In this document: in pieces, positions 5,393 through 55,634 of the stretch
Position numbering within the stretch: the stretch's first letter is position 1
Layout of the letters: each line of letters starts with the position of its first letter
Origin: Diplosphaera chodatii
Taxonomy: Eukaryota; Chlorophyta; Trebouxiophyceae; Prasiolales; Stichococcaceae
Assembly: GCA_032358165.1 (NCBI GenBank)
Contig: JAALGY010000012.1
Location: forward strand, 3,100,001 to 3,164,000
DNA length: 64,000 bases
Reading direction: 5' to 3'
Notes under the pieces: generated by a model
The model's database searches: none
What the model saw: the letters and a program-made list of their open reading frames with translations, nothing else
What the model was told of the DNA's origin: nothing
Made by a program: the position numbers and the translations under genes

Positions 5393-8300
5393 ATGGCGTG
5401 CAACGGGCACGACGTGTTTCTCAGCCACTCGGGCAGCGAAGATGGCGGCTTGGTGAAGATGGTGCTGGACTTTGTGCGGCGCGAGCTGGACGGGCTGCAG
5501 CCCCCGCGGCAGCGCACCTTTCTAGATGAGCACAGCCTCAGCCACGGGCCCGCAGATGTGGCCGTAGAGCACGCGCTGCGCAACTGTGCTGTGGGTGCGT
5601 CACCTGCTCCTCGGTGCATGTGTAGGTTCATGTCCTGGTGCCGATCGTTACAGCACACCTGCTGCTGTCTGACAACATGACGTCAGGCATGGCCAGCGAT
5701 GGGGATGCGCACCACTAAGGCGATCCCACTGGTGCTGTGTGATATCTGCGCACAGCCTCTTTCTTTGCGACTGCTCTGGTCCACATCTGGCTCAGAACTT
5801 GCCGTTAGCTCAGGACCTGTGAACTGGTAAAGGCAGGCATGCTTACAGTAGGAGTGCCCCTGTGCCATGCAACATGTGCAACCCAAGTTCAGATACACCC
5901 AACAATTGCCGGTTGTTATACAGGTGTGGTCGTCTTGAGCGAGGACTTCCTGCGCAGCAGCTGGTGCATGTGGGAGCTGGGCCTACTGATGCAGCGCCAA
6001 GCACAGCAGAGGCAGGACCGCGCGGCAGGCCGCCAGACGCCAGGGCAGCAGCAGACCGTCATCCCGGTGTTCAACAGAGTCAGCTACGAACAGTGCAGGC
6101 AGATTCGACAGAAGTATCAAGAGGACAGCTTTTGGGGCAGTCCGGAGCGTCCTTCAGCGGAGACAGTGGAAGAGTGGGCAAGCCATGTTGAGGAGCTCTG
6201 CGCTCATAGTGGCGAGCGTGGTGACCAGGTAAGGCCCTGAAGTGGCCCACAGGATGCACTCCGGCATATCACCGAGTGCTCTCAAAACCGGCTGAGTGCA
6301 TGCTCCTCATTGACAAGGCGGTTTCATCAAGGAGCTGTTTGCATGTGTGCAGACAAACGTGAAGGAGCCGACGCAGCTGGCAGATCACACGCTGGATCGT
6401 GTCGTTGCTGCGCTGAAAGACGCTGGCAAGCTCGGACAGCACGTGCAGCGTGACGCCAGGCGCATGCCACTGGTGCAGTTGGGACGCCCACCCTTGTGTC
6501 TGGGCCGCCACCATGAGCTCGCCGCTGTGGAGGAGCGGCTGTTGAGCGAGCGGCTGGTGCTCGTCGTGGGCGGCCCTGGTGAGGGTAAGAGCACGCTCGC
6601 AGCAGAGGCCGTGCACCGCATGCTCGATGGCGGCCGAGATTTCAGCGGCGTGTACCTGGTCGACCTCGCCAACGTGCCAGGTGAAGAATATGGACTGAGG
6701 ACGCACACTGAGGTCATGCAGCGCCAGTGCCGCAAGATCGTACACTGCCTGGGTTGGTCACTTGACATCGTGTGGTCAGTCATGCTCGCATTGCATTGCA
6801 GGGAGCAGGGATGATCTGACGCAGCACGTGGCAGCTGTCCTGTGCGCAGCATGCAGCCAGGCGCAGGTGCATGACTGCTTCGTGCTGGGCAGAAGCGCTT
6901 GCCTTGATGTGGACATTGCCTGTGCACATCAGCACTGCACAGCTGCTTGCTGTTTGCATGCTGCAGGAGGGCGCGTCACTGGCCTCAATCTCAAGCTGGG
7001 AGAGTCTGCTTAGGTGGATGCGCATACAGACACGACCATTGCTGGTGGCTTTTGAGAATGCCGAGGGCGTGCTGGGCACTGCAAACGAGGTAATCACAAT
7101 GCCTTTGCGACAGTCGGATGGCAGATGGTGGAAATTATAGCTGTACGTATGTGTGTGCACTCTCACATCACCGTACATCTGTGTGCAAAGTAAATGAATG
7201 ATAATGTGTTCTTCCTGAGGAGGGGCTTCACAGCAGGTTACGCCTGCAGGTGCTTTCGGACGTCATACGCGAGCTGCACGGCTGCAGCGCTGTGCATCTG
7301 CTGCTGACGTCCAGGATCAGAATGAACAATGCCAGCATCAGGCCACTGCTGCTGACACCTATGGACGCTGCCAATGCTGTCAAGCTGCTGCAGGACCAGC
7401 AGCCCAGCTGGCAGCCAGCCCAGGCGGCACTCGTGGCTGAGCATTGTCAGCACAATGCGCTGCTGCTCACCATCATTGCCAGGCTGGTGGCCGAAGAACG
7501 CTGCACTGCTCAGGTGTCTTTCACTTGTGTCGTGCATCATGCAACACCTGTATACCACCAGCACCATGAGTTGAGTTGACGACGTCTTCCATGGACAACT
7601 GGTTGTGCTAACTTCATGTGCTTGCCTGATAACTGTGGATCTGCTCCGATCAGGAAGCTGTGGAGGCAGCAGAAGGTGGCGGGCCCCTAAGTCTGTTGGA
7701 AGGCGCACGAATTGGCGGCGCCAGCAACGATCCGCATGTCCAGCGATCGTGCACCTGGTTGGAGTCGATGCTGCAGCCGGCCGAGCGAGACGCACTCATC
7801 GCGCTGGCCCTCTTCAGGTGTGCAGATTTACAACCGCGCAGTCAAGATGACCCAGGGTTCCTTCCTTGCAGTGCCAGGTGTATGCATGTGCATCAATACC
7901 TCTCCTATCTGGATTGCTCTGTCACCGCTGCTTGAAGGCTTTGCACAAGGCTCTAGCTTGACCAGGTCTCGCCGTTCCTATGGTTCATCCAAAGCTCCTG
8001 CCGCCACAGGGGCAGTTTTGGAGACACGGGCGTCGCTGCACTGCTGCAACAGTCCAGCACTCAAGTCGTCAGGGACTTGGTGGACCTGTCCCTTGTCAGC
8101 TGCAGCAGTGTTGCGACGGCGACCAGCCACGGCTTGGGACAGCAGCGGCAGCAGCGACGGCGGTACACCATGCACCCAGTGGTCTGGCACTTTTCAGAGC
8201 GCCTGCGCCTGCAGCTGCAGCAGCAGCAGCCGCCGGCGCAGCAGCTCGTTGCTGTGGAAGCTTTCATGAGCCACATGCTGCAGCGTGGCAACCGTCTGTG

Positions 8301-11300
8301 GGAGCTGCAGCCAGGAACTGGCGGCACTGCGGATCTGGGGGAGGCGCACCAGCTGCTGGCAGATGAGCTGCCCAATTTTGTTGCGTTGTCAAGTCAGCTC
8401 AGCCGGCCGCCGCTCAGCAACAGCAGTTTCAGTGTTGAGAAGCTGCCCCAGCTCGATCGCACAGCTGATGCACTTGCTGCCTATGGCAGGCACACAGCAG
8501 CAAGAAAACTCCTCAGACAGATCGTACAAATCCGCAGCAATGCTTGGGGTCCAGAGGACCCTGACACGCTGAGCAGCATCAACGACCTTGCCACGGTGCT
8601 TGGCGAAATGGGGCAGTATGAGGAGGCGGCGGCGCAGCTGCAGCAGACGCTGGAGATCCGGCAGCGGGTGCTGGGGCTGGAGCACCCAAGGACACTGCTC
8701 AGCATGAGCAACCTAGCAAGCGCACTTAGCGAAATGGGGCAGTATGAGGAGGCGGTGGCACAGCTGCAGCCGACGCTGGAGATCCAGCAGCGAGCGTTGG
8801 GGCCGGAGCACTTAGACACGCTGGCCAGCAGGCACAACCTCGCCATCGCACTCAACGAAATGGGGCAGTATGAGGAGGCGGCGGCGCAGCTGCGGCAGAC
8901 ACTGGAGATCATGCAGCGGGTGTTGGGGCTGGAGCACCCGCACACGCTGATCAGCATGAGCTGTCTCGCAACGGTGCTTGGCGAAATGGGGCAGTATGAG
9001 GAGGCGGCGGCGCAGCACCGGCAGACGCTGGAGATCCGGCAGCGGGTGTTGGGGCTGGAGCACCCAGACACGCTGATCAGCATGAGCTGTCTCGCCACGT
9101 TCCTCAGCGACATGGGGCAGTGTGAGGAGGCGGCGGCGCAGCTGCGGCAGACACTGGAGATCATGCAGCGGGTGTTGGGGCTGCAGCACCCGCACACGCT
9201 GGCCAGCATGCATAATTTAGCTGGGGCACTCGTCAAAATTGGGCAGCTCGAGGCAGCACTGACCCTGCAGCGGCGCACAGTGCCGCTTAGGCAACGGGTC
9301 CTGGGGCCAGAGCACCTGGACACGCTGGCCAGCATGAACGTTTTCGCAACGGTGCTCAGCCAAATGGGGCAGTATGAGGAGGCGGCGGCGCAGCTGCAGC
9401 AGACGCTGGAGATACAGCAGCGGGTGTTGGGTCCGGAGCACCCGCACACGCTGGTCAGCAAGAGCAACCTAGCAAGTGCACATAGGAAAATGGGGCAGTA
9501 TGAGGAGGCGGCGGCGCAGCTGCAGCAGACACTGGAGATCATGCAGCGGGTGTTGGGGCTGGAGCACCCGCACACGCTGATCAGCACGAGCAGTCTCGCA
9601 ACGGTGCTTGGCGAAATGGGGCAGTATGAGGAGGCGGCGGCGCAGCTGCTGCAGACGCTGGCGATACAGCAGCGGGTGCTGGGGCTGGAGCACCCAGACA
9701 CGCTGACCAGCATGAGCAATCTCGCCACGGTGCTCAGCGACATGGGGCAGTATGAGGAGGCAGCGGCGCAGCTGCGCCAGACGCTGGAGATCCGGCAGCG
9801 GGTGTTGGGTCCGGAGCACCCGCGCACGCTGGCCAGCATGAGCAGCCTCGCAACGGTCCTCAGCCAAATGGGGCAGTATGAGGAGGCGGCGGCACAGCTG
9901 CAGCAAACGCTTGAGATACAGCAGCGGGTGTTGGGACTGGAGCACCCGGACACGCTGGCCAGCATGGGCAACCTCGCCACAGTGCGTGGCGAAATGGGGC
10001 AGTATGAGGAGGCAGTGGCGCAGCACCGGCAGACGCTGGAGATCCGGCAGCGGGTGTTGGGGCTGCAGCACCCGCACACGCTGGCCAGCATGCATAATTT
10101 AGCTGGGGCACTCGTCAAAATTGGGCAGCTCGAGGCAGCACTGACCCTGCAGCGGCGCACAGTGCCGCTTAGGCAACGGGTCCTGGGGCCAGAGCACCTG
10201 GACACGCTGGCCAGCATGAACGTTTTCGCAACGGTGCTCAGCCAAATGGGGCAGTATGAGGAGGCGGCGGCGCAGCTGCAGCAGACGCTGGAGATACAGC
10301 AGCGGGTGTTGGGTCCGGAGCACCCGCACACGCTGGTCAGCAAGAGCAACCTAGCAAGTGCACATAGGAAAATGGGGCAGTATGAGGAGGCGGCGGCGCA
10401 GCTGCAGCAGACACTGGAGATCATGCAGCGGGTGTTGGGGCTGGAGCACCCGCACACGCTGATCAGCACGAGCAGTCTCGCAACGGTGCTTGGCGAAATG
10501 GGGCAGTATGAGGAGGCGGCGGCGCAGCTGCTGCAGACGCTGGCGATACAGCAGCGGGTGCTGGGGCTGGAGCACCCAGACACGCTGACCAGCATGAGCA
10601 ATCTCGCCACGGTGCTCAGCGACATGGGGCAGTATGAGGAGGCAGCGGCGCAGCTGCGCCAGACGCTGGAGATCCGGCAGCGGGTGTTGGGTCCGGAGCA
10701 CCCGCGCACGCTGGCCAGCATGAGCAGCCTCGCAACGGTCCTCAGCCAAATGGGGCAGTATGAGGAGGCGGCGGCACAGCTGCAGCAAACGCTTGAGATA
10801 CAGCAGCGGGTGTTGGGACTGGAGCACCCGGACACGCTGGCCAGCATGGGCAACCTCGCCACAGTGCGTGGCGAAATGGGGCAGTATGAGGAGGCAGTGG
10901 CGCAGCACCGGCAGACGCTGGAGATCCGGCAGCGGGTGTTGGGGCTGCAGCACCCGCACACGCTGGCCAGCATGCATAATTTAGCTGGGGCACTCGTCAA
11001 AATTGGGCAGCTCGAGGCAGCACTGACCCTGCAGCGGCGCACAGTGCCGCTTAGGCAACGGGTCCTGGGGCCAGAGCACCTGGACACGCTGGCCAGCATG
11101 AACGTTTTCGCAACGGTGCTCAGCCAAATGGGGCAGTATGAGGAGGCGGCGGCGCAGCTGCAGCAGACGCTGGAGATACAGCAGCGGGTGTTGGGTCCGG
11201 AGCACCCGCACACGCTGGTCAGCAAGAGCAACCTAGCAAGTGCACATAGGAAAATGGGGCAGTATGAGGAGGCGGCGGCGCAGCTGCAGCAGACACTGGA

Positions 11301-12141
11301 GATCATGCAGCGGGTGTTGGGGCTGGAGCACCCGCACACGCTGATCAGCACGAGCAGTCTCGCAACGGTGCTTGGCGAAATGGGGCAGTATGAGGAGGCG
11401 GCGGCGCAGCTGCTGCAGACGCTGGCGATACAGCAGCGGGTGCTGGGGCTGGAGCACCCAGACACGCTGACCAGCATGAGCAATCTCGCCACGGTGCTCA
11501 GCGACATGGGGCAGTATGAGGAGGCAGCGGCGCAGCTGCGCCAGACGCTGGAGATCCGGCAGCGGGTGTTGGGTCCGGAGCACCCGCGCACGCTGGCCAG
11601 CATGAGCAGCCTCGCAACGGTCCTCAGCCAAATGGGGCAGTATGAGGAGGCGGCGGCACAGCTGCAGCAAACGCTTGAGATACAGCAGCGGGTGTTGGGA
11701 CTGGAGCACCCGGACACGCTGGCCAGCATGGGCAACCTCGCCACAGTGCGTGGCGAAATGGGGCAGTATGAGGAGGCAGTGGCGCAGCACCGGCAGACGC
11801 TGGAGATCCGGCAGCGGGTGTTGGGGCTGCAGCACCCGCACACGCTGGCCAGCATGCATAATTTAGCTGGGGCACTCGTCAAAATTGGTCAGCTCGAGGC
11901 AGCACTGACCCTGCAGCGGCGCCCAGTGCCGCTTGTGCAACGGGTCCTGGGGCCAGAGCACCCGGACACGCTGGCCAGCATGCATAATTTAGCTGAAGCA
12001 CTTTTCTGCAATCGTCAGCTTGAGGCAGCACTGACCCTGCAGCGGCGCACAGTGCCGCTTACGCAACGGGTCCTGGGGCCGGAGCACCCGGACACGCTGG
12101 CAGCTGTATCCCTCTATGACCATATCATCGCACTGAGATAG
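5393..12141 (+). CDS. Gene A1, TIR-NB-ARC-TPR receptor (NLR-like), intact
   Basis: Eight exons join in one frame: 5393-5594, 5924-6228, 6353-6680, 6802-6866, 6967-7089, 7250-7513, 7654-7817 and 8010-12141. All junctions are GT-AG and the product is 1,860 residues. TIR, residues 1-~165: HDVFLSHSG (strand A), RTFLDE (strand B), then VVVLSEDFLRSSWCMWEL, whose E85 sits at the position of the TIR NADase catalytic glutamate, and VIPVF. NB-ARC: P-loop GGPGEGKST 242-250; Walker-B-like RPLLVAFENAE near 323-333; sensor LLLTSR 358-363. The winged helix follows, with GSFGD near 485 and YTMHPVV at the MHD position (~538). About 28 TPRs of 42 residues, typified by MGQYEEAAAQL and LGLEHPDTL, end in a cap at AAVSLYDH. 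The start at 5393 is chosen because homology among copies begins there; an in-frame upstream ATG is not supported. NLR proteins of this kind act as cytosolic switches: ligand binding to the repeats, NTP-driven oligomerisation, TIR signalling. That role is inferred. Confidence 0.9.
9202..10083 (+). repeat. 882-bp higher-order repeat, copy 1 (seven TPRs)
   Basis: A block of seven TPR units begins at the codon for ASMHNLAGALVKIGQ. The same sequence follows twice more with a period of exactly 882 bp. By eye I find no base difference between copies. Confidence 0.92.
10084..10965 (+). repeat. 882-bp higher-order repeat, copy 2
   Basis: Second consecutive copy of the seven-TPR block, with the same unit order and the same silent sites as copy 1. 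Confidence 0.92.
10966..11847 (+). repeat. 882-bp higher-order repeat, copy 3
   Basis: Third consecutive copy. It is followed at 11848 by a single related unit (ASMHNLAG...) that already differs, for example AAATTGGTCAG in place of AAATTGGGCAG. That marks the end of the homogenised tract. Confidence 0.92.
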
Positions 12142-14150: not shown

Positions 14151-14169
14151 GAGGCGTCAGCTTGCTACC

Positions 14170-16734
14170 CTGCCCAGGCCTGCGCACCGTGTCAAAAGGG
14201 GCAGCTGTGTATTGTTGAATGCGCTGCTGCAGCTGCAGTGCTGGACTGCCTGCCTCAAGTCAGCGATGCTTGAGCCATGCAGCTGTGTCCTGTCAAGCAT
14301 TTTCGCCCCTAGACGGCTGTTTTGTAGCATGTGGCGCTTCGTGCTGTTTGCAGGCAGGCATGCCCTCCATGCTGACCACCCTGCAGCACCTGTCAGCGCC
14401 ATCCGTGCAAGATGCCCAATACAGTCTGCCCCACTGCTCCGTCTCGGCTGCCCGCACAGCCGACAGCCTGAACAATGTGAGCACCAGTACTCACTGGCCG
14501 TTTGGGCATGTGCTGTTGAACATTTAGGATTTGAGGCAGCCAGGCACACCCAGGAAGGCTGCCGCATGCACGAAGCAGGGGATGACTGTTCATTCAAGTG
14601 AGCAGTGCATCCTGTGAGATGCCTGATCAAAGGCTATGTTCTGCTGCGACACCACATGCGCGGCGATGAACTCTGCAACTGACTTGATATCCTTCTTCTT
14701 GACAGACCGGCTCTGGGCCCTGGGCGCAGCTGCACGAAGCAACGGCAAAGGCTGCTTCCATCGGTGGAGCACTGGACTGTGGGACTACACATTGTCTCTG
14801 CTGTGGCTGCAGGTGCGACTCCCTGCTCTGATGCTTTGTTGGCATCAGCACCTAGGGTACCTAAGCAGCGTGCTACTTTCGTGTGGTTCCACTGCCAAGC
14901 AGACCTCTGTCCTGACAGCGACCTGGCTTGCAAGTTCCCGCTTTGCATGGATGCCCTGAAATGCCAGTTGCAGATGTTTAACAGGCCGCTAAGGGCGCCG
15001 TTTCGTCGTCCTGCAGCGGTTGTCGGGGCTGGCGCTGGCGTCACATGTGCAGCAGCACAGCGCTGCTGCCACCCTGCACGTGGGTCTGCTGTGGGCCGTG
15101 GCGCAGTAGCCGCGTCTGTGCAAACTCGTGCTGGACGCCATACCTGATGGACATCCAGGTGCGCTGGCCATGTAAGGTCTTGCCAAGACGTGCCTGAAGA
15201 GCCTGCCATGTAGGCTGCTGTGCACACGCATACCCTGACGCACCCAGCATACGCTGTCCCGCTGAATGCAGTGGGATTGCTGTGTCGTCGAGTTGACTTC
15301 AAGAGCACGGAGTGGCTGTTGGGGCTGCAACGTTCCTGCAAACCAGCTATGTGACCCTGCAGCCACTGGCACAGGCGCAGCTGTACGGCCTGATGGGATT
15401 GCTGACAGCACTGGGGCGGCTGCGGTGGGAGGCCCTGGGGCCACAGCATCCAGATATGCTGCAAGCCATCGATCACTGGAGCATCGCGCCCGCGCACCAT
15501 GACGATGCAGCCACACGGTGTGTCCTGGCATGATATGCTTGCATGTATGCACTTCCATATATGGTCACGCACATCAATCCAAGTGATGCACACAGTGCCA
15601 TGTGTCCCTGTAGATGGTGTTAGGCCGGCACCCATACTGCTGGGTGCCCGACAGGCATCGCCCTATGCTGGACGCGGCCATCGCCCTGTGGAGCCGCGAC
15701 AACCGAGAAGTCCTTGCCGTGATGGACAACCTGGGGTGGCAGCTGCGGGACCTGGCGCAGCTGCCGAGGCGCGGCAGCGGCACTCAGAGGCGCTCGCGGG
15801 GTGCCGTCGCATGCTGAGGGAGCTGCACCCGACCTCCATCAGCTGCGCCAGCAGCCTGGCATGCGTGGAGCACGCCCTTGGGCAGGATGCCGCAGTGGTG
15901 CAGCGGTTCCAGCAGGCAATAATGTGCATTGACACTGACAACATGCCACACGTATGTGCCTGGAACCAGCTGCCAGCCTGCTGCTGCCCAGCAGTGTTTG
16001 AAGCTGCTAAGTGGTAGTAAACAAGACAGCGAGCTGCTTCTCTCTGCATGGCCTGATTGTGATGTGTTGTTTGCCGTGCATGCAGGTGCTGGCGGCACGG
16101 GACGACCTGTTGGGGCCGGAGCACCCAGACACGCTGGACGCCCGCTGCGATGTGGCCGCGCTGCTGGCGGCTGGGTCGCGGCCCGGCAGCGCGTGCTGGG
16201 GCCGTCTCACCCTAGGGTCTGGAACGCCAAGGGCAACCCGGCGCCCAAGCTGCGCGCATGTGGGCAGCACGGCGAGGGGTGGCAGCTGCTACGAGAGGTC
16301 GCAGCGGCACAGCAGCGCCTGCTTGGCCCGGACCGTCCAGATACAATGCGCTCGATAGGCAATCTGGGGCCAGCTGTCAGCGGATGGGCAGCTTGAACCT
16401 GCGGCGGAGCAGTATGCATGCCAGGCCGTGCTGCTGGAGGAGCGGCTCCACAGGACTTATCTAAACAGTGGCGTGGTGCACTACACAGCAAAGCGGCCGG
16501 GCATCTTCAGGCAGCGCCAGGAGGTAGAGATCGCAGAGCAGCAGCGTGTAGCAAAAGCGGCTGCAGCTCAGGGGCTTCCGAAGGCGGACAATGTACCAGT
16601 CGTCGCTGGTGTGGGCTGAGAAAGCAAAGGAGGCGTATGATGCCGATGCAACGATGCCAGGTGCACTGCAGCTGGCAGCCAATGAGGCTCCGCTGTCAGA
16701 CAAGCCGCTGCCGCCTGTCCCCAGCGCCGTGTAG
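14170..16734 (+). pseudogene. Gene B2, TPR-rich protein, degenerate
   Basis: Candidate exons run from about 14350-14477 (LTTLQHLSAPSVQDAQ, flanked by TTTGCAG and GTGAGC) through an AG-preceded segment at 14706-14810 and one near 14870-14970. TPR segments follow at 15312-15520 (LGPQHPDML), 15650-15920 (LDAAIALW then SEALAGCRRML), 16086-16190 (LLGPEHPDTL), 16180-16400 (VLGPSHPRVW, RLLGPDRPDTM) and a C-terminal segment starting LHRTYLNSGVVHYTAKRP near 16445, with consensus stop TAG 16732-16734. This copy preserves the join into the C-terminal segment that copy 1 lost. However, it has a 1-nt change after the LAQL motif near 15765 and an extra G near 16590, so it does not read through. The 5' boundary is uncertain. 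Confidence 0.4.
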
Positions 16735-17141
16735 AGGATCAGACGATCGATGTTCCTACGTGGGCACTGTGTAGACTGGATAGCTGGACCTGAGGGTTGA
16801 CCTGTCAATGTAGGGCTGAAGTGTTTGCTCACTCGCAACAGCATGCAGCATGCTGCCAGTGCCAGTAGTATTGTCGGCGTACTGAGCCATTGGGCACTGT
16901 TCTAGCCGCTGCAAGAAACACAATTTACACATGGTCAACCGGCTGTGCTTCCTGTGCTGAGGACTTGCAAATGACTGCTGACCACAGCTATCACAACATA
17001 CTCGTGATGCGGCTCATGCAAGGTCGACGCAGACAGCACGACCGCCCAGCTGCACTACTACCAAGTGCTAAACTGCTGCCATACGTCTCAGAACAGTCAC
17101 GATGTTGACATGGCTGCTGTAAGAGATCGCTCACTTGACCT
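16735..17141. other. Spacer between converging genes B2 and C2
   Basis: This is conserved with the same spacer in the other modules. It probably holds the two 3' untranslated regions. I see no gene in it. Confidence 0.35.
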
Positions 17142-20400: not shown

Positions 20401-20441
20401 CTGGTATGCATCACCTAGCAGTTCTTTGTTGTGAAGGGGCC

Positions 20442-32440: not shown

Positions 32441-32464
32441 CAGCGACCCTGGTGTGCAGGGGCC

Positions 32465-39000: not shown

Positions 39001-41528
39001 CGTGTCAAACGGGCAGCTGTGTACTGTTGATGCGCTGCTGCAGCTGCAATGCTGGACTGCCTGCCTTAAGTCAGCGACGCTCGAGTCAGCAATGCAGCTG
39101 TGTCCTGTCAAGCGTTTTCGCCCCTAGACGGCTGTCTACAGCAGGTGGCGCTTCGTGCTGTTTGCAGGCAGGCATGCCCTCCACGCTGACCACCCTGCAG
39201 CACCTGTCGGCGCCATCCGTGCAAGACGCCCAAGACAGTCTGGCCCGCTGCTCCGCCTCGGCTGCCCGCACAGCCGACAGCCTGAACAATGTGAGCACCA
39301 GTACTCACTGGCAGTTTGGGCATTGGCTGTTGAGCACTCATAATTTGAGGGCAGCCAGGCACACCCAGGATGGCTGCTGCATGCACGAAGCAGGGGATGA
39401 CTGTTCATCTAAGTGATCAGCGCATCCCTGTGAGATGCCTGATGCACAGGCTGTGTTCTGCTGCGACACCACATGCGCGGCGATGAACACTGCAACTGAC
39501 TTGATATCCTTCTTCTTGACAGATCGGCTCTGGGCCCTGGGCGCAGCTGATCGTGGCTGCAGGCGGTGGCACTGAGCTGCACGAAGCAACGGCAACGGCT
39601 GCTTCCCTCGGTGGAGCACTGGACTGTGGGACCATATGTTGTCTCTGCTGTGGCTGCAGGTGCGGGTTCCCTGCTCTGATACTTTGTAGGCATCGGCAAA
39701 TACCTAAACAGCGTGCTACTTTCGTGTGGTTCCACTGCCAAGCAGACCTCTGCCTTGACAGCAACCTGGCAGCAGGTTCTCGCTTTGCATGCGTGCCCTG
39801 AAATGCCAGTTGCAGATGATACACAGGCCGCTAAGGGCGCCGTTCCGTCAGCCCGTAGCGGTGGTTGGAGCTGGCGCTGGCGCCACATGTGCAGCAGCAC
39901 GGCGCTGCTGCCACCCTGCACGTGGGTTTGCTGTGGGCCGTGGCGCAGTAGCCGCGTCTGTGCAAACTCGTGCTGGACGCCATACCTGATGTACATTCAG
40001 GTGCGCTGGCCATGTAGGGTCTTGCCAAGACATGCCTGAACAGCCTGCCATGTAGGCTGCTGTGCACACGCATACCCTGACGCATCCATCATACGATGTC
40101 CCGCTGCATGCAATGGGATAGCTGTGTTGTCGAGCTGACTTCAAGGGCACTGGCTGTTGGGCTGCAACTCTGCTGCAAAGCAGCCATGTGACCTGCAGCC
40201 ATTGGAACCGGCGCAGCTGTACGGCCTGATGGAATGGCTAATGGCGCTGGTGCGGCTGCGGTGGGAGGCCCTGGGGCCACAGCATCCAGATACGCTGCAA
40301 GCCATCGATCACTGGAGCATCGCGCCCGCGCACCATGACGATCCAGCCACACGGTGTGTCGTGGCATGATACGCTTGCACACATGCACTTCCATATATGG
40401 CCACGCACATCAATCCAAGTGATGCACACAGTGCCATGTGTCCCTGTAGATGGTATTAGGCCGGCAACGATACTCCTGGGTGCCCGACAGGCATCGCCCT
40501 ATGCTGGACGCGGCCATCGCCCTGTGGGGCCGCGACAACCGAGATGTCCTGGCCATATGGACAACCTGGGGTGGCAGCCGCGGGAGCTGGCGCAGCTGCC
40601 GATGCGCGGCAGCGGCACTCAGAGGCGCTCGCGGGGTGCCGTCGCATGCTGAGGGAGCTGCGCCCGACCTCCATCAATTGCGCCGGCAGCCTGGCATGCG
40701 TGGAGCACGCCAATGGGCAGCATGGCGCAGCGGTTCCAGCAGGCAATGATGTGCATTGACACTGACAACATGCCACACGTATGTGCCTGGAACCAGCTGC
40801 CAGGCTGCTGCTGCCCAGCAGTGTTTCAAGCTGTTAAGTGGTAGTAAACAAGACAGCCAGCTGCTCTTATCCCCCTGGCCCTGACGGTGACATGTTGTTC
40901 GCCTTGCATGCAGGTGCTGGCGGCACGGGAAGACCTGTTGGGGCCGGAGCACCCAGACACGCTGGACGCCCGCTGCAATGTGGCCGCGCCGCTGGCGGCT
41001 GGTCCCGCACCCTAGGGTCTGGGACGCCAAGGGCAACCTGGCGCTTAAGCTGCGCGCATGTGGGCAGCACGGCGAGGGGTTGCAGCTGCTACGAGAGGTC
41101 GCAGCGGCACAGCAGCGCCTGCTTGGCACGGACCGTCCAGATGCAATGCGCTCGATGGGCAATCTTGCGGGCCAGCTGTCAGCGGATGGGCAGCTTGAAA
41201 CTGCAGCGGAGCAATATGCGTGCCAGGCCGTGCTGCTGGAGGAGGCTCCACAGGACTTGAAACAGTAGCGTGGTGCACTACACAGCAGAGCGGCCGGGCA
41301 TCTTCAGGCTGCTGCACGAGGTAGACCGCAGAGCAGCAGCCTGTAGCAATAGCGGCTGCAGCTCTGGGGCCTCCGAAGGCGACAACTTACCAGTCGTCGC
41401 TGGTGTGGGCTGAGAAAGCAAGGGGGGCGTTCAATGCCAATGCGGCGAGGCCAGGTGCACCGCAGCTGGCAGCCGATGCGGCTCCGCTGGCACAGCAGCC
41501 GCTGCCGCCTGTCCCCAGCGCCGTGTAA
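38990..41528 (+). pseudogene. Gene B4, TPR-rich protein, degenerate
   Basis: Segments: 39165-39292 (LTTLQHLSAPSVQDAQ, TTTGCAG/GTGAGC borders), 39520-39660, 39710-39815, 40157-40365 (LGPQHPDTLQAIDH), 40500-40740 (LDAAIALW; HSEALAGCRRML), 40914-40990 (LLGPEHPDTL), 41000-41260 (RLLGTDRPDAM) and a C-terminal segment ending at TAA 41526-41528. Lesions include the 1-nt loss in GCCATATGG near 40555, a 9-nt loss at AVAQRFQQ near 40735, loss of the VLGP linker near 41005 (shared with copy 1) and a missing CGG codon near 41242. It is nearly identical to B5 in its 5' half. Confidence 0.4.
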
Positions 41529-43985: not shown

Positions 43986-43992
43986 CCAGTCT
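43986..43992 (+). repeat. Target-site duplication CCAGTCT, left
   Basis: The 7 bp before the element repeat exactly after it (49535-49541). The uninterrupted site in modules 1-3 reads CATCCAGTCTGGCATCC with a single CCAGTCT. Confidence 0.95.
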
Positions 43993-44560
43993 CAGTCATG
44001 TAGGGCACCTTAACACTAGGCAAGAAAGGGTGGTTTTGATAGCAGAATTTCAGTGGGGCTGTGCCGATTGATAGCTGGTCCTGTGCAGATTGATAGCTGC
44101 GAACGCGGCTAAGTGCCGCCAGCACACAGCCCCTCAACATGCGCGACCCGTCTCAGAACATACTTTGCCATCTTGTCGGGGCCATCTGGTAGGGTGTGAC
44201 CTCTCGCACCGGCGATGCGGCACGCTATACCGTCCTGCGTCGAGGACCCTCCGGCAGCTAAACCGGCAGCAGTCGAGGCCCACGCACAGTGACAGCCCCG
44301 CGTGCCGCAGCGGCGAAGGCTGGACAGTCCTGAGACTGCACTTTGCCGGGCAGACATGCGGTGGGGGCCTAGGCTGGCCGTGCACGGGTGTTTTTGGTCT
44401 GCAGGCTTGTCAGGCATGGCGTCGTGCTGCGCGCGCCTTGGGCAAATGCAGCAGGTGAGCGGCAACCTGGGAGTGGGTCTGGCATCAGCAGCACCTTCTG
44501 TGCGGCTGTGCGCCCCGTACGCCTGAGTCTGCAGCGACATCGAAGCCTTTGCTCTGAGTC
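43993..44560 (+). repeat. Left long terminal inverted repeat
   Basis: It is the inverted copy of the right arm (about 48965-49534). The outer 50 bp are perfect. Further in there are substitutions and a 9-bp extra segment (TGGACAGTC near 44322). Weaker similarity continues to about 44725, where both arms contain CACATCCATCAGATG. Confidence 0.9.
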
Positions 44561-44739
44561 GGGTTGGGCGCGTCTCCGGGCTGTTAGCTGCCTGTCTGCG
44601 GCCGACTGCCCATCCGGGACGTCTAACTGGGCTTTACAGTCATATTACGTGCCCGCAACGATGCTTCCTGTCCCATCGGGCTGCTACTAGAAGGATTGCC
44701 TCCATGCACATCCATCAGATGCGATGCCCAGGTTCCATC

Positions 44740-47700
44740 GGTTGCATGAGAGAGCTGTCAAGCGAGCAAACAAGGCTCCCGCGTGATGCCATCACCCCCT
44801 GTAGGCCCTTTTACGTGCGGGCAACATTGGCACGTCGCAAAGCTGAAGCATTACATTGCACAACGCCCTGCGCTGCACATGCGCTTTCAGTGTTGGGAAC
44901 CAGCATGGAAGCAGCTGCTGCTGTCAGCAAAGGCCTGAAACTGCCCACAGCAGATTGTCAGCTCCAGAAGCACCCGCAGATTGCTGGCGTGTAGCAGGTG
45001 CAGCACTGAGCATCAGCGCCATGGACGATCCACCACCGACAGCCGCAACCAGGCCAGCTGCTGTTGCAACTGTTGCCCTGTAACCGTTCAGACCCTACAG
45101 ATACACACTCACAAAGTGTCCCGTTGCTTCTCAGTATGTGGCAGCCTCACTGTCATATGTACCAGCAGCGCAACATGCGTCAAGCTGCAACATACATCTA
45201 CGCCAATGCTTGCACCTGCCATTTGGCTGCACCTCTCTCCTCTCTAGGATGTCCAGCTGCCTCTGCACGGGCAGCGAAGATTTCAGCTGCTTTTGCCTAC
45301 AGACTGTACAGCACCCCTGAGTGCACATGGGATGGTCCTGTGCGGACGCTTGTACGCCTAACATGAAGTCTTGGCTGAACGCGAGCAGCTGAAGTGTTGT
45401 TGCTAAAGTGTTGCTGGTGCACGTGTATTGCATGTGCGGCCTGCAACACCATTGCTGGTTGCCAGCGGAAGACACCTGGACTGAAAACCTGCACCTGGAC
45501 TGGAAACCTGCACCTGGACTGGCTTCAGTAGTCGGTGCTCTCTAACCACACCGCTTGTTCCCTGCTGATATCGGTGGATTGCGTGGCGCTACGCTGTACT
45601 GGGACACCTCTCAAAGTGTCTACTTGAAAGCCTGCTGCTGGGTCCCTTCCACCTGCATCATGCAGACCACAAGCTCTTTGTGCAGTAGAGTGCAATTCCT
45701 AAGTGTGCACGTGTGGCACACCCTGAGGCTATAGTGCCTGCATGCAGGCGAGTGACCTGAGAAAGGTCATCGCTCACACACTGCCGGCAGAGCGTTGCTG
45801 TGCAGCGCAGCAGCAGCGGGTGGGATAATCGACGCGTGCGCATACATACACCAGAACACTCTCACGTACTCCGTACACGGTCCAGTCCTGCATGTATGAA
45901 GCCTGCACAGCAATCAGTTTTTGCGCCAGGTTGTTGACATGCTGGACATGTCACTGTGATCTGCTGAAAGAAGCGATAGATGGTACTTGCATACCCAACT
46001 GCAACAAGCTCCCAGGCAAATTGTCTGCTCTCCCAATCAGATCATACCAATCGTGATTGCAGTGAACGTCCAGCACTCGCTGAATGTGGCATGCCTGGTG
46101 TCTGAAAGTCAACTGTTGACAGTAACCTCGCCACTGAGACTGCATACGTGTATCATATTGGATATTCGGCGGTCAAGATTGTGGCAAAACCCAGGGTTTG
46201 TTGCAGTGACCTGCAGTGTAGGAGTGATCTACTGATCCGTCACATTTGAGCATAAGAACAGGCACAGTCACCGCACTATGTGAAGTCGCACATGCACTTC
46301 TCAGACCAGTACTGATGGGGTTGTTGTCAACGGTGGACACCAGCGTTGCGACATATATAGCAGTGAAAGCAGGTGCCCTGCTGGCATCTCACCATGACAT
46401 CGACAACAGTGACCAGCAGCAGAGCAGGGCGGTATATGCTTGATGACGGAGATCTCTGCTACGCTGGGATTGCTAGCAGGCAAGTGTCCTGCTTTGCCGC
46501 AAGTGGCGACGGTGCAGCGTCTACGTTGTGCGCAGGGGCGTCAGCGGTGATACAGTTGTATGCGCAGCATAGCAGCAATCAACGGAGTGCGATGTGAGGC
46601 ATGTCATGAGCAGGCATCGGCATTGCTGGTTACAAGTGGACCCCTGAATACTCCTGCATGCAACCTCGTGCTAGCTGACAGTCCTGTTCGCATAACCATC
46701 AGACTGCAGGCTGGCAATGGCACATCCGGTCGGCAGCGCCCCAACAAAGGACATGGCCAAGATGCTGCTCCTGCGTTCCTCCTACAGTGGCCGCACCTTC
46801 ACAACTTCCACCACAGTAAGGTTTGAGCTGTCGAATGTCCAGGTGATTCAGAGAGTGATACATTCACCACGGGGATGGACACCCGATTGATTGCGACATG
46901 ACCTGCTATGTGCTCAACTGGAACCATGCCTGCAGGTAGATACGACTGTTCCCGTCCACCAGCGTCAGTGAAACATCAGATGCAGCATTGCTTGTGGAGC
47001 TAGCACATGTAATGCTCGAGGACATAGCGGAAGTCCGTGCGCAGTGCGCAGTGCTTGAAGCTCAGTTTGCAATGCGCAGGATGCGCTGCCTGTGAGCGCA
47101 GGGCAAAGTGCAGGCGCATGCCTGAGGACGCATTGTGTGCACGCAGAGCATGGTTCTGTTCCAGGCCATTCTACAAGGTATTCTGACACCGCCGCGCAGG
47201 TAGGAGCAAATGAGAGCCGCACATGGCGGTCCGGCCTGTATAGTTATTTCCATCGACCATAAGTATGTGGTATCCACTGCATTGGCAGCGTCCCAGTTCG
47301 TGTCGAACATGCTGCAAACAAAGCGCTCCTCAGGTGTGGTCTTTAGGTAGCGGTAGATCTTCCCTGGGATGCAGGGTGCCATGTGGAGCAATTGTCATAG
47401 GCTTGGCAGGTCAATGTGCAAAAGCCGGCACGAATGTGTTTGGGAAGCGCTGGAACAGCGGTGAGGACAAGTTGCATGTTTGGTCCGGAGATTGAACTGC
47501 CGCTACCATGCACATCAGACCATGTATGCTTGTGTGTGAGTGCCGCCATTCGTATGGTGCAGGAGTGCCGAAGGGTGACTGCCGTGCACAGGTTTGCTCG
47601 TGCATCGAGTGGTCATCAATGCATGTCTGCCACTGATCAATTGTGACACCCCTGCTATTGCAGACCTACAGAACCATGACGCACTCCATCTGTCCGGACA

Positions 47701-48800
47701 AGCTGGCATGTGTAACACCACATACAGGACAGGTGCCCTCTCCTGCACTTTGCAATGTCGTGCTGCTCCAGGACAAATACTGCTGTGCGCATGACTCCTG
47801 ACAGACCACCAAATGTCATGCAGCGTCCTTAGAGCACTAATGGTTCCAAGAGAAATAGGCTGCAGACACCACTGCCTGCATCTGGCAGGTGCAATGTGGG
47901 CAGCAACGCATGCTGCAGCCGCCTGCAGCTGGCACCCACATACGACGGTGATGTTGGCGGCAGACGCGGTGCCACCTGCGAGGGCATGAGATGTTCAGTG
48001 CCCAGCAGCACATCCAGCGTTTCAGTTGCAGCAGTTTGGCACATCAAGGGCTAGCTGCTTCAACACGAATGTGGCGCACCCGTGCAACCCACCGCAATGA
48101 CTCGAGGACTGCGCCTCTGCTGGCTGGCTATGCCTTGTGGAAGTGTTCACTTGATGGCGACAGCACACCTGAATGGCATTGGAAGTTGTCAATGCAGCGC
48201 ATCGCACCCGCTCACACTGTGCAGCCTCGCACCCTCCCATCTAATTGCCACATCTGCTCATGTGCGCAATGGCTGCCATCATCCCTCAGAAGAGGAGAAT
48301 TTGCTCTGCACAGCACTACCAGCATGTGGTTCATGGGCACGATGCTGTACTGGCAGCATGCAAAATGTCGAAGCACAAACGAGATACACAGCTCATCAGC
48401 CTGGGAAGCTGCAGAAGTCCTATGTCATACGATACGTGGCAGCTGCTTGCCAATGTGCAGACTGCATCATGACATGTGTGGCGCACCAAGATGGTGGTGG
48501 TTCCAGGCACAGGCACAGGCACAGGCTGCGCCTCAGTCGGCACTGAAAGCCGTGACTGCCGCGAGACTGCTGCCTGACGCTGTGCTGCTCAGCTGTGCTG
48601 CTAGGTTCTCGGAATTGTACATCAGCCACGGCTAGCATTGGTGCGCTGGTGGCAATCTGCGAGGCCTGCGCAGTGCGTCAATGTAAAGGCTCTTCTCTGA
48701 AAGAAGAGCCTTGAGAGACACCCAACGCTCTGCGATGTGTGGATGTCACAAGATCAGGATGGCAACGTGCACATAGGTCCGGCGGATCGCCACTCCGTGC
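44740..48800. other. Interior of the transposable element
   Basis: The base composition is less GC-rich than the surrounding modules and no open frame exceeds about 215 codons. The most coding-like stretch is on the minus strand at about 47190-47391 (GKIYRYLKTTPEERFVCSMF and DTNWDAANAVDTTYLW), possibly continued by 47430-47549 (MQLVLTAVPALPKHIRAGF). These may be exons of a decayed transposase. I recognise no catalytic motif. A plus-strand frame at 47991-48635 has no recognisable domain. Confidence 0.4.
45473..45529 (+). repeat. Short tandem repeat, three copies of 19 bp
   Basis: CACCTGGACTG(A/G)AAACCTG repeats with a 19-bp period inside the element. The third copy is imperfect after CACCTGGACTGG. 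Confidence 0.85.
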
Positions 48801-48964
48801 AGTCAACGCACCTGACATCTGATGGATGTGCATAGGGCGGACCCTCGGCCAGCAGCCTGATCGGCGCATGGCGATCCGTTCAGAGTACAGGATGTGACAG
48901 AAACGCATCCTGCAGATTGCCGAGTATGCAATCAGCCAAGAGCACGCAGTATCAGCCCAAGAAC

Positions 48965-49534
48965 GCACCCGGCCAGGGGCAGGGCAATGGCTTCGATGTC
49001 CATGCAAAAGCAGGCGTACGGGGCGCACAGCCGCACAGAAGGTGCTCCTGATGCCAGACCCACTCCCAGGTTGCCGCTCACCTGCTGCATCTGCCCAAGG
49101 CGCGCGCAGCACGACGCCATGCCTGACAAGCCTGCAGACCAAAAACACCCGTGCACGGCCAGCCTAGGCCCCCACCGCATGTCTCCCCGGCACAGTGCAG
49201 TCTCAGGCCTTCGCCGCTGCGGCACGCGGGGCTGTCACTGTGCGTGGGCCTCGAATGCTGCCGGTTTAGCTGCCGGAGGGTCCTCGACGCAGGACGGTAT
49301 AGCGTGCCGCATCGCCGGTGCGAGAGGTCACACCCTACCAGATGGCCCCGACAAGATGGCAAAGTATGTTCTGAGACGGGTCGCGCATGTTGAGGGGCTG
49401 TGTGCTGGCGGCACTTAGCCGCGTTCGCAGCTATCAATCTGCACAGGACCAGCTATCAATCGGCACAGCCCCACTGAAATTCTGCTATCAAAACCACCCT
49501 TTCTTGCCTAGTGTTAAGGTGCCCTACATGACTG
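48965..49534 (-). repeat. Right long terminal inverted repeat
   Basis: Reverse complement of the left arm, ending CATGACTG at 49534. The shared frames in the two arms (for example VSEHTLPSCRGHLVGCDL on opposite strands) simply reflect the inverted duplication. Confidence 0.9.
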
Positions 49535-49541
49535 CCAGTCT
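49535..49541 (+). repeat. Target-site duplication CCAGTCT, right
   Basis: Exact repeat of 43986-43992. The following GGCATCCAGATCGCC resumes the C-gene exon sequence of the other modules. Confidence 0.95.
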
Positions 49542-50897: not shown

Positions 50898-53800
50898 ATG
50901 GCGCGCGGCGGGCATGACGTGTTCCTCAGCCACTCGGGCAGCGAGGACGGAGGCTTGGTGAAGATGGTGCTGGACTTTGTGCGGCGCGAGCTGGATGGGC
51001 TGCAGCCCCCGCGGCAGCGCACCTTTCTAGACGAGCACAGCCTCAGCCACGGCCCCGCAGATGTGGCCGTGGAGTTCGCGCTGCGCCACTGCGCTGTGGG
51101 TGCGTCACCTGCTCCTCGGTGCATGTGCAGCTGCATGTCCTGGTGCCAATCGTTACAGCACATCAGCTGCTGTCTGACAACATGACGTCAGGCATGGCCA
51201 GCAATGGGGATGCGCACCACTAAGGCAATCCCATTGGTGCTGCGTGATATCTGCACACAGCCTCTTTCCTTGGCGACTGCTCTGGTCCACATCTGGCTCA
51301 GAACTTGCCGCTAGCTCAGCACCTGTGAACCGGTAAAGGCAGGCATGCTTACAGTAGGAGAGCCCCTGTGCCATGCAACATGTGCAACCCAAGTTCAGCT
51401 ACACCCAGCAGTTGCCGTTTGCTATACAGGTGTGGTCGTCTTGAGCGAGGACTTCCTGCGCAGCAGCTGGTGCATGTGGGAGCTGGGCCTGCTGAAGCAG
51501 CGGCAAGCACAGCAGAAGGCGGACCGCGGGGCAGGCCGCCAGACGCCAGGGCAGCAGCAGACCGTCATCCCCGTGTTCTTCAGAGTCAGCTACGAACAGT
51601 GCAGGCAGATTCGACAGAAGTATCAAGAGGACAGCTTTTGGGGCAGTGCGGAGCGTCCTTCAGCGGAGACAGCGGAAGAGTGGGCAAGCCATGTTGAGGA
51701 GCTCTGCGCACATAGCGGCGAGCGCGGTGACCAGGTAAGGCCCTGAAGGTGGCCCACAGGATGCACTCCGGCATATCATTGAGTGCTCTCAAAACAGGCT
51801 GAGTGCATGCTCCTCATTGACAAGGCGGTTTCATCAAGGAGCTGTTTGCATGTGGGCAGACAAACGTGAAGGAGCCGATGCAGCTGGCAGATCGCACGCT
51901 GGATCGCATTGTTGCTGCGCTGAAAGACGCTGGCAAGCTCGGACAGCATGTGCAGCGTGATGCCAGGCGCATGCCACTGGTGCAGCTGGGACGCCCACCC
52001 TTGTGTCTGGGCCGCGACGATGAGCTTGCCGCTGTGGAGAAGCGTCTGTTGAAGGAGCGGCTGGTGCTCGTCGTGGGCGGCCCTGGTGAGGGTAAGAGCA
52101 CGCTCGCAGCAGAGGCGGTGCACCGCATGCTCGATGTCGGCCGAGTTTTCAGCGGCGTGTACCTGGTCGACCTCGCCAACGTGCCAGGTGAAGCGTTATG
52201 GACTGAGGACGCACACTGAGGTCATGCAGCGCCAATGCCACAAGATCGTACGCTGTCTGGGTTGGTCACTTGACATCGTGTGGTCAGTTATGCTTGCATT
52301 GCATTGCAGGGAGCAGGGACGATCTGACGCAGCATGTGGCAGCTGTCCTGTGCGCAGCATGCAGCCAGACGCAGGTGCATGACTGCTTCGTGCTGGGCAG
52401 GAGCGCTTGCCTTGATGTTGGTATTGCCTGTGCACATCAGCAATGCACAGCTGCTTGCTGTTTGCATGCTGCAGGAGGGCGCGTCACTGGGCTCAATCGC
52501 AAGCTGGGAGAGTCTGGTTAGGTGGCTGCGCATACAGACACGACCATTGCTGGTGGCTTTTGAGAATTCTGAGGGCGTGCTGGGCGCTGCAGATGAGGTG
52601 ATCAAAATTGCTTCGCGACAGTCGGATGGCAGTTGGTGGATTTTATGGTACACATAGCTGTATTTGTGTGCACTCTCACATCACCGTACATCTGTGTGCA
52701 ACGTAAATGAATGACAATGTGTTCCTATCTGAGGGGGGGCTTCACAGCAGGTTACGCCTGCAGGTGCTTTCGGACGTCATTCGCGAGCTGCACGGCTGCA
52801 GCGCTGTGCATCTGCTGCTGACGTCCAGGATCAGAATGAACAACGCCAGCATCAGGCCACTGCTGCTGACTCCTATGGACGTTGTCAATGCTGTCAAGCT
52901 GCTGCGGGACCAGCAGCCCAGCTGGCAGCCAGCCCAGGCGGCACGCGTGGCTGAGCTTTGTCAGCACAATGCGTTGCTGCTCACCATCATTGCCAGGCTG
53001 GTGGCCGAAGAACGCTGCACTGCTCAGGTGTTTTTAATTTGTGTCGTGCATTATGCGATACTTGTATACCACCAGCACCATGAGTTGACCACGTCTTCCT
53101 TGGACAACTGGTTGTGCTGACTTCATGTGCTTGCCTGATAATTGTGGATCTGCTCCGATCAGGAAGCTGTGGAGGCAGCAGAAGGTGGCGGCCCCCTAAG
53201 TCTGCTGGAAGGCGCACGAATTGGCGGTGCCAGCAACGATCCGCATGTCCAGCGATCGCGCACCTGGTTGGAGTCGGTGTTGCAGCCGGCCGAGCGAGAC
53301 ACACTCATCACGCTGGCCCTTTTCAGGTGTGCAAATTCACAAGCGCGCAGTCACAATGACCCAGGGTTCCTTCCTTGCAGTGCTGCATGTGCACCAATAC
53401 CTTTTCTATCTGGATTGCGCAGTCACCGCTGCTTTAAGGCTTTGCACAAGGCTCAAGCTTGACTAGGTCTCGTCGTTCCTATGCTTCATCCACAGCTCCT
53501 GCCGCCACAGGGGCAGTTTTGGAGACGCGGGCGCTGCTGCACTGCTGCAGCAGTCCAGCACTCAAGTCCTCAGGGACTTGGTGGACCTGTCCCTTGTCAG
53601 CTGCAGCAATGTTGCGACGGCTACCAGCCACGGCTTGGGACAGCAGCGGCAGCAGCGACGGCGGTACACCATGCACCCAGTGGTGTGGCACTTTTCAGAG
53701 CGCCTGCGCCTGCAGCTGCAGCAACAGCAGCCGCCAGCACAGCAACTCGTTGCTGTGGAAGCTTTCATGAGCCACATGCTGCAGCGTGGCAGCCGTCTGT

Positions 53801-55206
53801 GGGAGTTGCAGCCAGGAACTGGCGGCACTGCGGAGCTTGTGGAGGCGCACCAGCTGCTGGCAGATGAGCTGCCCAACTTTGTTGCGTTGTCAAGTCAGCT
53901 CAGCCGACCGCCGCTCAGCAACAGCAGTTTCAGTCGTGAGAGGCTGCATCAGCTCAACAATACAGCTGATGCTCTTGCTGCATACGGCAGGCACACAGCA
54001 GCAGAACGCTTCCTCAGACGGGTTGTACAAATCTGCAGCAGTGCTTGGGGTCCGGAGCACCCGGACACGTTGGCCAGCATCAACAGCCATGCCGCTCAGC
54101 TTGGCGAAATGGGGCAGTATGAGGAGGCGGCAGCGCAGCACCAGCAGACGCTGAAGAGCCAGCAGCGGGTGTTGGGGCTGGAGCACCCGCACACGCTGGC
54201 CAGCATGTGCAACCTCGCAATGGTGCTTGGCGAAATGGGGCAGTATGACGTGGCGGCGGCACAGCTGCGCCAGACGCTGGCGATCCTGCAGCGGGTGTTG
54301 GGGCTGGAGCACCCGGGCACGTTGGCCAGCATGTCCAACCTCGCAATGATGCTTGGCGCAATGGGGCAGTATGAGGAGGCGGCGGCGCAGCAGCAGCAGA
54401 CGCTGGCGATCCGGCAGCGGGTGTTGGGGCCGGAGCACCCGCACACGCTGGCCAGCAGGCACAACCTCGCCGTCGCACTCAGCCAATTGGGGCGGTACGA
54501 GGAGGCGGCGGCGCAGCACCGGCAGACGCTGGCAATACGGCAGCGGGTGTTGGGGCTGGAGCACCCGCGCACGCTGATCAGCATGAGCAGCCTCGCAACG
54601 GTGCTTCTCAAAATGGGGCAGTATGAGGAGGCGGCGGCGCAACTGCAGCAGACGCTGGCGATCCGGCAGCGGGTGTTGGGGCCGGAGCACCCGCACACGC
54701 TGGCCAGCATGCACAACCTCGCCCGCGCACTCTGCGAAATGGGGCAGTATGAGGAGGCGGCGGCGCAGCACCGACAGACGCTGGCGATACAGCAGCGGGT
54801 GTTGGGGCTGGAGCACCCAGAAACGCTGGGCAGCTTGAGCAATCTCGCCACAGCGCTTGGCGAAATGGGGCAGTATGAGGAGGCGGCGGCACAGCACCGG
54901 CACACGCTGGAGGTCCGGCAGCGGGTGTTGGGGCTGGAGCACCCGCACACGCTGATCAGCATGAGCAATCTCGCCACGGTGCTTGACGACATGGGGCAGT
55001 ATGAGGAGGCGGCGGCGCAGCACCGACAGACGCTGGCGATACAGCAGCGGGTGTTGGGGCTGGAGCACCCGCACACGCTGGGCAGCTTGAGCAATCTCGC
55101 CACAGCGCTTGACGACATGGAGCAGTATGAGGAGGCAGTGGCGCAGCACCGGCAGACGCTGGCGATACAGCAGCGGGTGTTGGGCTGGAGCACCCGCACA
55201 CGCTGA
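50898..55206 (+). CDS. Gene A4, TIR-NB-ARC-TPR receptor, frameshifted near its end
   Basis: Exons: 50898-51099, 51430-51734, 51860-52187, 52310-52374, 52475-52597, 52764-53027, 53163-53326 and 53511-55206. They join in frame to 1,048 residues. The TIR (HDVFLSHSG, RTFLDE, VVVLSEDF, SSWCMWEL, VIPVFF), P-loop GGPGEGKST, FENSE, LLLTSR and TMHPVVWHF are all intact. About nine TPRs follow; many units use AAQHRQTLAIQQ, unlike A1. At about 55183 the usual TTGGGGCTGG is TTGGGCTGG, one G short. This switches frame and ends the protein at TGA 55204-55206. Three more repeats and the cap lie intact beyond. A base-calling error in the G run could explain the shift, in which case the protein would end at 55634. 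Confidence 0.87.
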
Positions 55207-55634
55207 CCAGCAAGAATAATCTCGCCACAGCGCTTGGCGAAATGGGGCAGTATGAGGAGGCGGCGGCACAGCACCGGCACACGCTGGAGGTCCGGCAGCG
55301 GGTGTTGGGGCTGGAGCACCCGGACACGCTGACCAGCATGAGCAACCTCGCCATGGTGCTTGTAGGAATGGGGCAGTATGAGGAGGCAGTGGCGCAGCAC
55401 CGGCAGACGCTGAAGATCCGGCAGCGGGTGTTGGGGCTGGAGCACCCGCACACGCTGACCAGCATGCATAATTTAGCGTGGGCACTTGGCAGCATTGGTC
55501 AGCTCGAGGCAGCACTGACCCTGCTGCGGCGCACAGTGCCGCTTATGCAACGAGTCCTGGGGCCGGATCACCCGTACACGCTGGCAGCCGTAGCAGACCT
55601 TGACACATACAATGGAACGCAGTCGTCGCATTGA
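55207..55634 (+). pseudogene. 3' end of A4 beyond the frameshift
   Basis: The original frame reopens with TSKNNLATALGEMGQYEEAA, two further TPRs and a cap. The cap here (AAVADLDTYNGTQSSH) differs from the AAVSLYDH of A1-A3, so A4 has its own C-terminus. If the missing G at ~55183 is an error, this is simply the end of exon 8. Confidence 0.85.

Follow-up and report, generated by a model that had tools for sequence, protein, structure and literature searches.

The window analysed here, a stretch of 64,000 nucleotides (C10:3100001-3164000 in a genome of 85.6 Mb and 55 contigs), probably covers one section of a tandem cluster of intracellular TIR-NB-ARC-TPR receptors, for which the most likely mechanism is ligand binding followed by NAD+ cleavage by TIR and signalling through an EP protein. 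An earlier note made from the window sequence had recognized the receptor family. It overlooked that most copies are broken, as well as the predicted EP genes beside TIR receptors elsewhere in the genome, one apparent fusion of EP to TIR there, and the EP relics in the window spacers.

Layout, domains and decay of the receptor array

Alignment of four repeated regions yielded the genes g1-g4 (Table 1), all on the plus strand, and splicing reproduced the common eight-exon layout that had been proposed for them, with identical phases and GT-AG borders at 28 of 28 introns. The tandem cluster is real; its reported size of four was too low, since a whole-genome search located two copies upstream of the window (u1 and u2, at C10:3080310 and 3092895), giving at least six in total. 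The repeat unit is ~12.5 kb, and is longer at g1, which has a long TPR array, and at the 5.5-kb insertion. An exon 8 acceptor used at first was rejected because g3 lacks an AG there and an upstream acceptor, giving LALFRGSF, suits all four copies.

Table 1. Features of the array and the fusion gene (window positions unless a contig is named)
Feature	Position	Strand	Remarks
g1, TIR-NB-ARC-TPR	5393..12141	+	8 exons, 1867 aa; sole fully open copy of six
g1 exons	5393-5594, 5924-6228, 6332-6680, 6802-6866, 6967-7089, 7250-7513, 7654-7817, 8010-12141	+	
g1 TPR array	8569..12096	+	28 units of 42 aa
Three seven-unit TPR blocks of 882 bp in g1	9199-10080, 10081-10962, 10963-11844	+	0 mismatches
g2, eight-exon receptor layout	20442..24678	+	pseudogene in present assembly
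g2 exons	20442-20643, 20974-21277, 21384-21732, 21854-21918, 22020-22142, 22308-22574, 22710-22873, 23064-24678	+	
g3, eight-exon receptor layout	32465..36696	+	open across NB-ARC and eight complete TPR units after it
g3 exons	32465-32666, 32982-33286, 33389-33737, 33862-33926, 34028-34150, 34317-34580, 34716-34879, 35061-36696	+	
g4, eight-exon receptor layout	50898..55206	+	other frame open to 55634
g4 exons	50898-51099, 51430-51734, 51839-52187, 52310-52374, 52475-52597, 52764-53027, 53163-53326, 53511-55206	+	
EP-gene relic, unit A	1331..1564	+	C-terminal tail VVHYTAKRPGIF..TTHQSSLVWADKAK..LPP; EP core missing
EP-gene relic, unit B	16473..16716	+	~3.7 kb upstream of g2, same strand, after TPR fragment
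EP-gene relic, unit C	28345..28605	+	upstream of g3; one in-frame TAG
EP-gene relic, unit D	41270..41510	+	upstream of g4
EP-gene relic, unit E, short	58632..58688	+	beyond the downstream end of g4; tblastn match at E 0.01 only
Decayed TPR fragment between units	15923..16396	+	TPR_10 8e-5, 22.9 bits, under cut-off 27.5
5.5-kb insertion in spacer before g4	43993..49534		terminal inverted repeats of ~600 bp, 94% identical
TIR-EP fusion gene	C51:123264-125065 (L022:3264-5065)	minus	TIR exons, linker and two EP exons; GT-AG junctions

According to the gene models, each product of g1-g4 combines in one protein a TIR domain, an NB-ARC domain with winged helix and MHP, and then TPRs (8-28 per receptor gene). 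In this layout, TIR is encoded by exons 1-2, NB-ARC through the winged helix and MHP by exons 3-8, and the TPRs by exon 8. The TIR of g1 matched PF01582 at 4e-8 (33.7-34.9 bits, cut-off 21.3), and TIR was found in all three members scanned (g1, g3, g4). The Glu of SSWCMWEL, described earlier as the catalytic residue of a plant-type TIR, falls, in an alignment with two bacterial TIR chains (one of them named an NAD+ hydrolase), on the E of their WTNYEL, so that by sequence the array receptors have the TIR with catalytic Glu of plant-type NLRs. As the note had also stated, a long TPR array (TPR_12 5e-79, TPR_10 3e-77 by Pfam in g1) occupies the C-terminus, where a plant-type NLR would have LRRs. 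Of the NB-ARC domain, the P-loop GGPGEGKS, the FRGSF winged helix, and YTMHP can be read in the sequence; the PF00931 match of g1 (19.8-20.8 bits, E 5e-4 to 1e-5) stays under the cut-off of 23.5; g1, g3, and g4, the three members scanned, all match at E<0.1 (best 1.1e-5). The HMM search suggested in the note places TIR and TPR of the joined g1 protein above the cut-off and NB-ARC below it. NCBIfam FxSxx_TPR matched residues 226-549 weakly (33.4 bits, cut-off 300), and a protein search that scored the 8000 candidates with most shared words gave one weak actinobacterial match.

The repeats were compared as 69 TPR units, 55 of them distinct, from six copies including the broken ones, in canonical TPR numbering. 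At positions 1, 8, 20, 32, and 36 the residue is invariant while the codons change. Positions 2, 5, 9, 12, and 13 show a mean of 2.33 bits versus 0.81 at the remaining positions; only 3 of 200,000 random sets were equally extreme, and the excess has the same direction in each of the six genes taken singly. The signal weakens when positions 33 and 34 are added (1609 of 200,000 random sets). Excerpts of PMC1261162 give 2, 5, 9, 12, 13, 33, and 34 as the variable concave face of TPRs in general; hence the pattern points to a recognition surface and is not by itself a sign of selection. As read from the sequence, variation concentrated at ligand-contact positions fits a recognition receptor. The three identical blocks in g1 arose either by expansion in the very recent past or as an artefact of assembly.

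Stops or frameshifts were found in five of the six copies. In g2, exon 2 has lost 1 nt by deletion and exon 7 is interrupted by a TAG; g3 has a TAG and a frameshift in the last TPRs. The reading frame of g4 shifts inside the TPR array, near its end, and is open before that across NB-ARC and at least eight TPR units. The copy u1 is interrupted by an internal stop, and u2 by a deletion of 1 nt. The lesions of g2, u1, and u2 fall in the TIR-NB-ARC part. For the TIR-NB-ARC exons of the six copies (670 of 674 codons), dN/dS is 0.35-0.52 in all 15 pairs, and therefore these exons were under constraint during much of their history.

Every window spacer contains an EP tail that follows a TPR fragment and lacks the EP core (the last spacer is weak). 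By its sequence, the companion between receptors thus combines a fragment of a TPR gene with the tail of an EP gene, best explained by a deletion that would have fused the two genes ahead of the amplification of the array. An active TPR gene in this place was considered and rejected in view of weak TPR matches and no clear codon-position bias (largest codon-position share 0.33-0.50 per scanned segment, in a scan uncalibrated on receptor exons). The 5.5-kb insertion is no part of the receptor unit; its inverted repeats end in CAGTCATGTAGGGCACC, it is flanked by a 7-bp target duplication (ccagtct), and four of its ORFs gave no usable Pfam match. Short tandem repeats, proline-rich in one frame by eye, are present in the right flank of the window (62717-63563), with no Pfam match in the single ORF scanned.

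EP genes beside receptor loci and the TIR-EP fusion

Protein queries against the genome identified 11 stand-alone EP loci besides the window relics. All of them have a TIR or NB-ARC match at a distance of 0.85-3.4 kb; the regions up to 5 kb from such an anchor make up only 0.46% of the genome. Nine are head-to-head with the neighbour and two are codirectional, with EP upstream. The neighbour of the C51:126k EP gene is the TIR-EP gene, so that 10 of the 11 adjoin a receptor-type locus. The pairs are non-independent because of tandem duplication; nevertheless, they are spread over seven contigs. By a crude rule that includes TIR-EP, ~41 NLR-type anchor loci were counted among the matches listed, ~30 of them with no EP partner detected.

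The EP assignment is based on PF18117 (28.0-51.0 bits in four proteins scanned, cut-off 23.1), on a PDB profile match, and on a fold match for a metagenomic relative. The profile match spans the stretch with EDS1 R493 and reaches all three EDS1-family members. The lipase-like domain, which is N-terminal in the EDS1 family, had no match in the five EP proteins scanned; the algal N-termini form a short hydrophobic helix, judged by hydropathy, or a coiled coil. In six of the eight non-fused EP cores, Lys or Arg precedes the conserved Trp, as in PAD4, where we take this residue to belong to the pocket. By alignment, the equivalent of EDS1 R493, a positive residue of the cavity (PMC6377607, in excerpt), is kept in TIR-EP and missing in eight of the nine EP cores.

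The C9:786k EP was counted on a partial and weak protein match alone (E 1.8e-5), with no PF18117 or other Pfam match in the fragment. At C3:139k (L018:4500-5400) the EP gene is decayed, with the core deleted, and lies upstream of a window-related receptor, much like in the window. The C10:3043k EP (L014:3147-4262, minus) has a repetitive Gln/Glu/Ala stretch, the coiled coil, instead of the hydrophobic helix, and is codirectional with a receptor related to those of the window. LRRs were seen in the receptor clusters examined on C51, C14, and C1 (by Pfam in one ORF, by eye in the rest); at C10:3050-3074k, the loci examined show repeats that look TPR-like by eye. On C51, a frame of 949 aa (L020:647-3493, minus) resembles a plant NB-ARC-LRR and has a TIR match upstream. 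A genome search for an RPW8-type helper gave a best E of 0.68, which was not accepted.

The TIR-EP gene stands head-to-head with the N-terminal-helix EP gene at L022:6211-7350 (C51:126k). Its EP part scores 51 bits against PF18117, and its linker resembles, by eye, the start of exon 3 in the window. Among the loci compared, its TIR is nearest to the window-array TIRs: five copies score 85-99 bits (u2 in two pieces) and the next locus 32; in the other direction, a window-array TIR scores 101 bits against TIR-EP and 62 or less against the remaining loci. TIR exon 1 carries a frameshift, so this copy may be broken. Public metagenome proteins include an EP exon with 98% identity and another, 77% identical, with the same borders. 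One might guess that TIR-EP and the helix EP form a pair with complementary pocket halves.

Proposed signalling mechanism and its alternatives

The receptor architecture and the TPR pattern support a ligand-recognition receptor, and the genomic linkage and the fusion support EP as its signalling partner. It is proposed that a ligand would bind to the TPR superhelix on its concave face, with specificity shifted by array expansion and by changes of contact residues. Binding would release the NB-ARC switch and gather TIR domains, which would then cleave NAD+ into nucleotide messengers. An EDS1-like EP protein, whose gene neighbours such receptors at other loci of the genome and which one N-terminal helix usually holds at a membrane, as hydropathy suggests, would sense the messenger and carry the response; reading of the TIR nucleotide by EP is assumed by analogy with EDS1 biology. 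In this array only a tail is left of the neighbouring EP gene, so that the surviving receptors would have to rely on EP proteins encoded at other places, C10:3043k and C10:3063k among them. The immune role suggested in the earlier note is likewise conditional: the array receptors may serve immunity.

A wider proposal, to which we give slightly less than even credence, is that a chlorophyte TIR-EP module predates seed-plant EDS1. It would consist of a divergent TIR-NLR/membrane-anchored EP pair or of a single TIR-EP protein, with EP reading the TIR product and acting directly at the membrane without lipase-like domain or RPW8 helper, and EDS1 would be a later fusion of EP to a lipase-like fold.

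The decay of the array allows another interpretation, that the array in the window is a relic: its receptors would have been functional once, most would today be pseudogenes that tandem duplication maintains, and g1 would be the only one that might still be active. The five broken copies, the decayed EP companions in the window and at C3:139k, and the insertion inside one unit agree with it; we nevertheless regard it as rather unlikely, as the reading frames of g1, g3, and g4 run uninterrupted across TIR, NB-ARC, and at least eight TPR units, dN/dS is well below 1, and the identical g1 blocks point to recent growth, unless they are an assembly effect. Moreover, NLR clusters usually contain broken paralogues. 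That the models combine TIR, NB-ARC, and TPR exons of separate genes is highly improbable: in these models, built from genomic sequence, all 42 introns of the six copies are GT-AG with the same phases, and the joins are in frame through all domains, the frame being broken by the listed lesions only.

Other alternatives accept working receptors and concern their output. We doubt that the algal EP, though related to that of EDS1, senses no TIR-made nucleotides and is instead a membrane scaffold or executor contacted directly by the receptor. The loss of the R493-equivalent Arg in most cores and the failure to detect a lipase domain in the proteins scanned or a helper RNL would be expected in that case; the EP match, however, covers the R493 stretch and extends to the whole EDS1 family, TIR-EP retains the Arg, and most non-fused cores have the PAD4-like Lys/Arg before Trp. 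Fungal NB-TPR proteins function in self/non-self, mating, or symbiosis recognition or in cell death, and the ligand of the algal receptors is itself conjectural; a role of this kind, including programmed cell death unrelated to pathogens, is nonetheless quite unlikely in our judgment, as the linkage of TIR and EP resembles seed-plant immune signalling, a likeness that does not separate the options. The preferred mechanism remains a receptor whose TIR product would be read by EP.

Relation to known systems

The suggestion that the DNA comes from a green alga is supported by Rubisco. The genome has two nuclear genes for the small subunit, and one of the proteins aligns with PDB 1gk8 without gaps over 140 residues (5.8e-62). 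The six best PDB chains (132-140 residues aligned, down to 1.6e-58), which we take to be green-algal, are followed from about 1e-47 by chains of ~122 residues, presumably from land plants. We therefore consider the host to be a chlorophyte.

Land-plant TNPs (XTNX), a conserved group (excerpts of PMC9806590 and PMC12856790), share with the window genes the domain order, a TIR with catalytic Glu, an NB-ARC with an MHD-type site, and TPRs replacing LRRs, a likeness of domain order and description. The alga differs in that the genes form a tandem array and that their TPRs are 42-aa units of kinesin-light-chain-like type, which number as many as 28 in one gene and vary at contact positions. The excerpt of PMC9806590 reports no TNP orthologue in two charophytes and no chlorophyte sequences in its four shared TIR groups. 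Bacterial STAND/NB-ARC-TPR proteins (FxSxx_TPR) share NB plus TPR, whereas the algal genes score far under that family's cut-off, have introns, and fuse TIR to NB-TPR. The view that such clusters are little described in green algae needs correction, as a TIR-NB-LRR cluster of Chromochloris zofingiensis (CzNLR) is in print, together with NB-TPR genes of the charophyte Klebsormidium and of brown algae (PMC7145615, in excerpt); algal NLRs are also treated by Feng et al. 2024, cited by the review PMC12856790. These are likewise algal NLR-like genes, clustered in Chromochloris, and the present genome similarly has TIR and NB-ARC-LRR clusters. The window genes, in contrast, unite TIR, NB-ARC, and TPR, and an EP partner is unmentioned in the excerpt of PMC7145615.

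With EDS1/PAD4/SAG101, the algal proteins share the genomic link to TIR receptors and the EP domain, as Pfam, a PDB profile, and, for a metagenomic relative, the fold indicate. They differ in having an N-terminal hydrophobic helix, a coiled coil (C10:3043k), or a TIR fusion in place of the lipase-like domain, and in occurring in a chlorophyte instead of a seed plant, with no RPW8-type helper detected in its genome. As far as the excerpts go, the EP domain uniquely defines the EDS1 family (PMC9806590), EP proteins and RPW8-NLRs are restricted to seed plants (PMC10834447), and an EDS1-type module is proposed for seed plants (PMC9153377; see also excerpts of PMC10952240, PMC8813719, PMC10805603, and PMC10442000). 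If true, a chlorophyte EP beside or fused to TIR would move the TIR-to-EP step back to early green plants or imply transfer between lineages; it hints at a signalling partnership older than believed. How TIR signals were read before EDS1 would become directly testable in a unicellular alga, for which the simple one-helix EP proteins offer material for biochemistry; the window's TPR array contributes a recognition surface in which blocks of repeats are copied exactly.

No report of EP in algae was found by title and abstract start in the literature searched, which leaves most subscription papers and preprints outside, so that prior notice is possible. In that literature, the accession PF18117 occurs in four papers. 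In viral contigs, 52 matches to one peptide pattern gave no confirmed EP, and the 31 pattern matches in GTDB genomes, a set that may leave out genomes near that of the window, gave none either. EP domains are present in public, mostly metagenome proteins (P0002-P0022), and we guess that the metagenome proteins likely come from uncultured algae.
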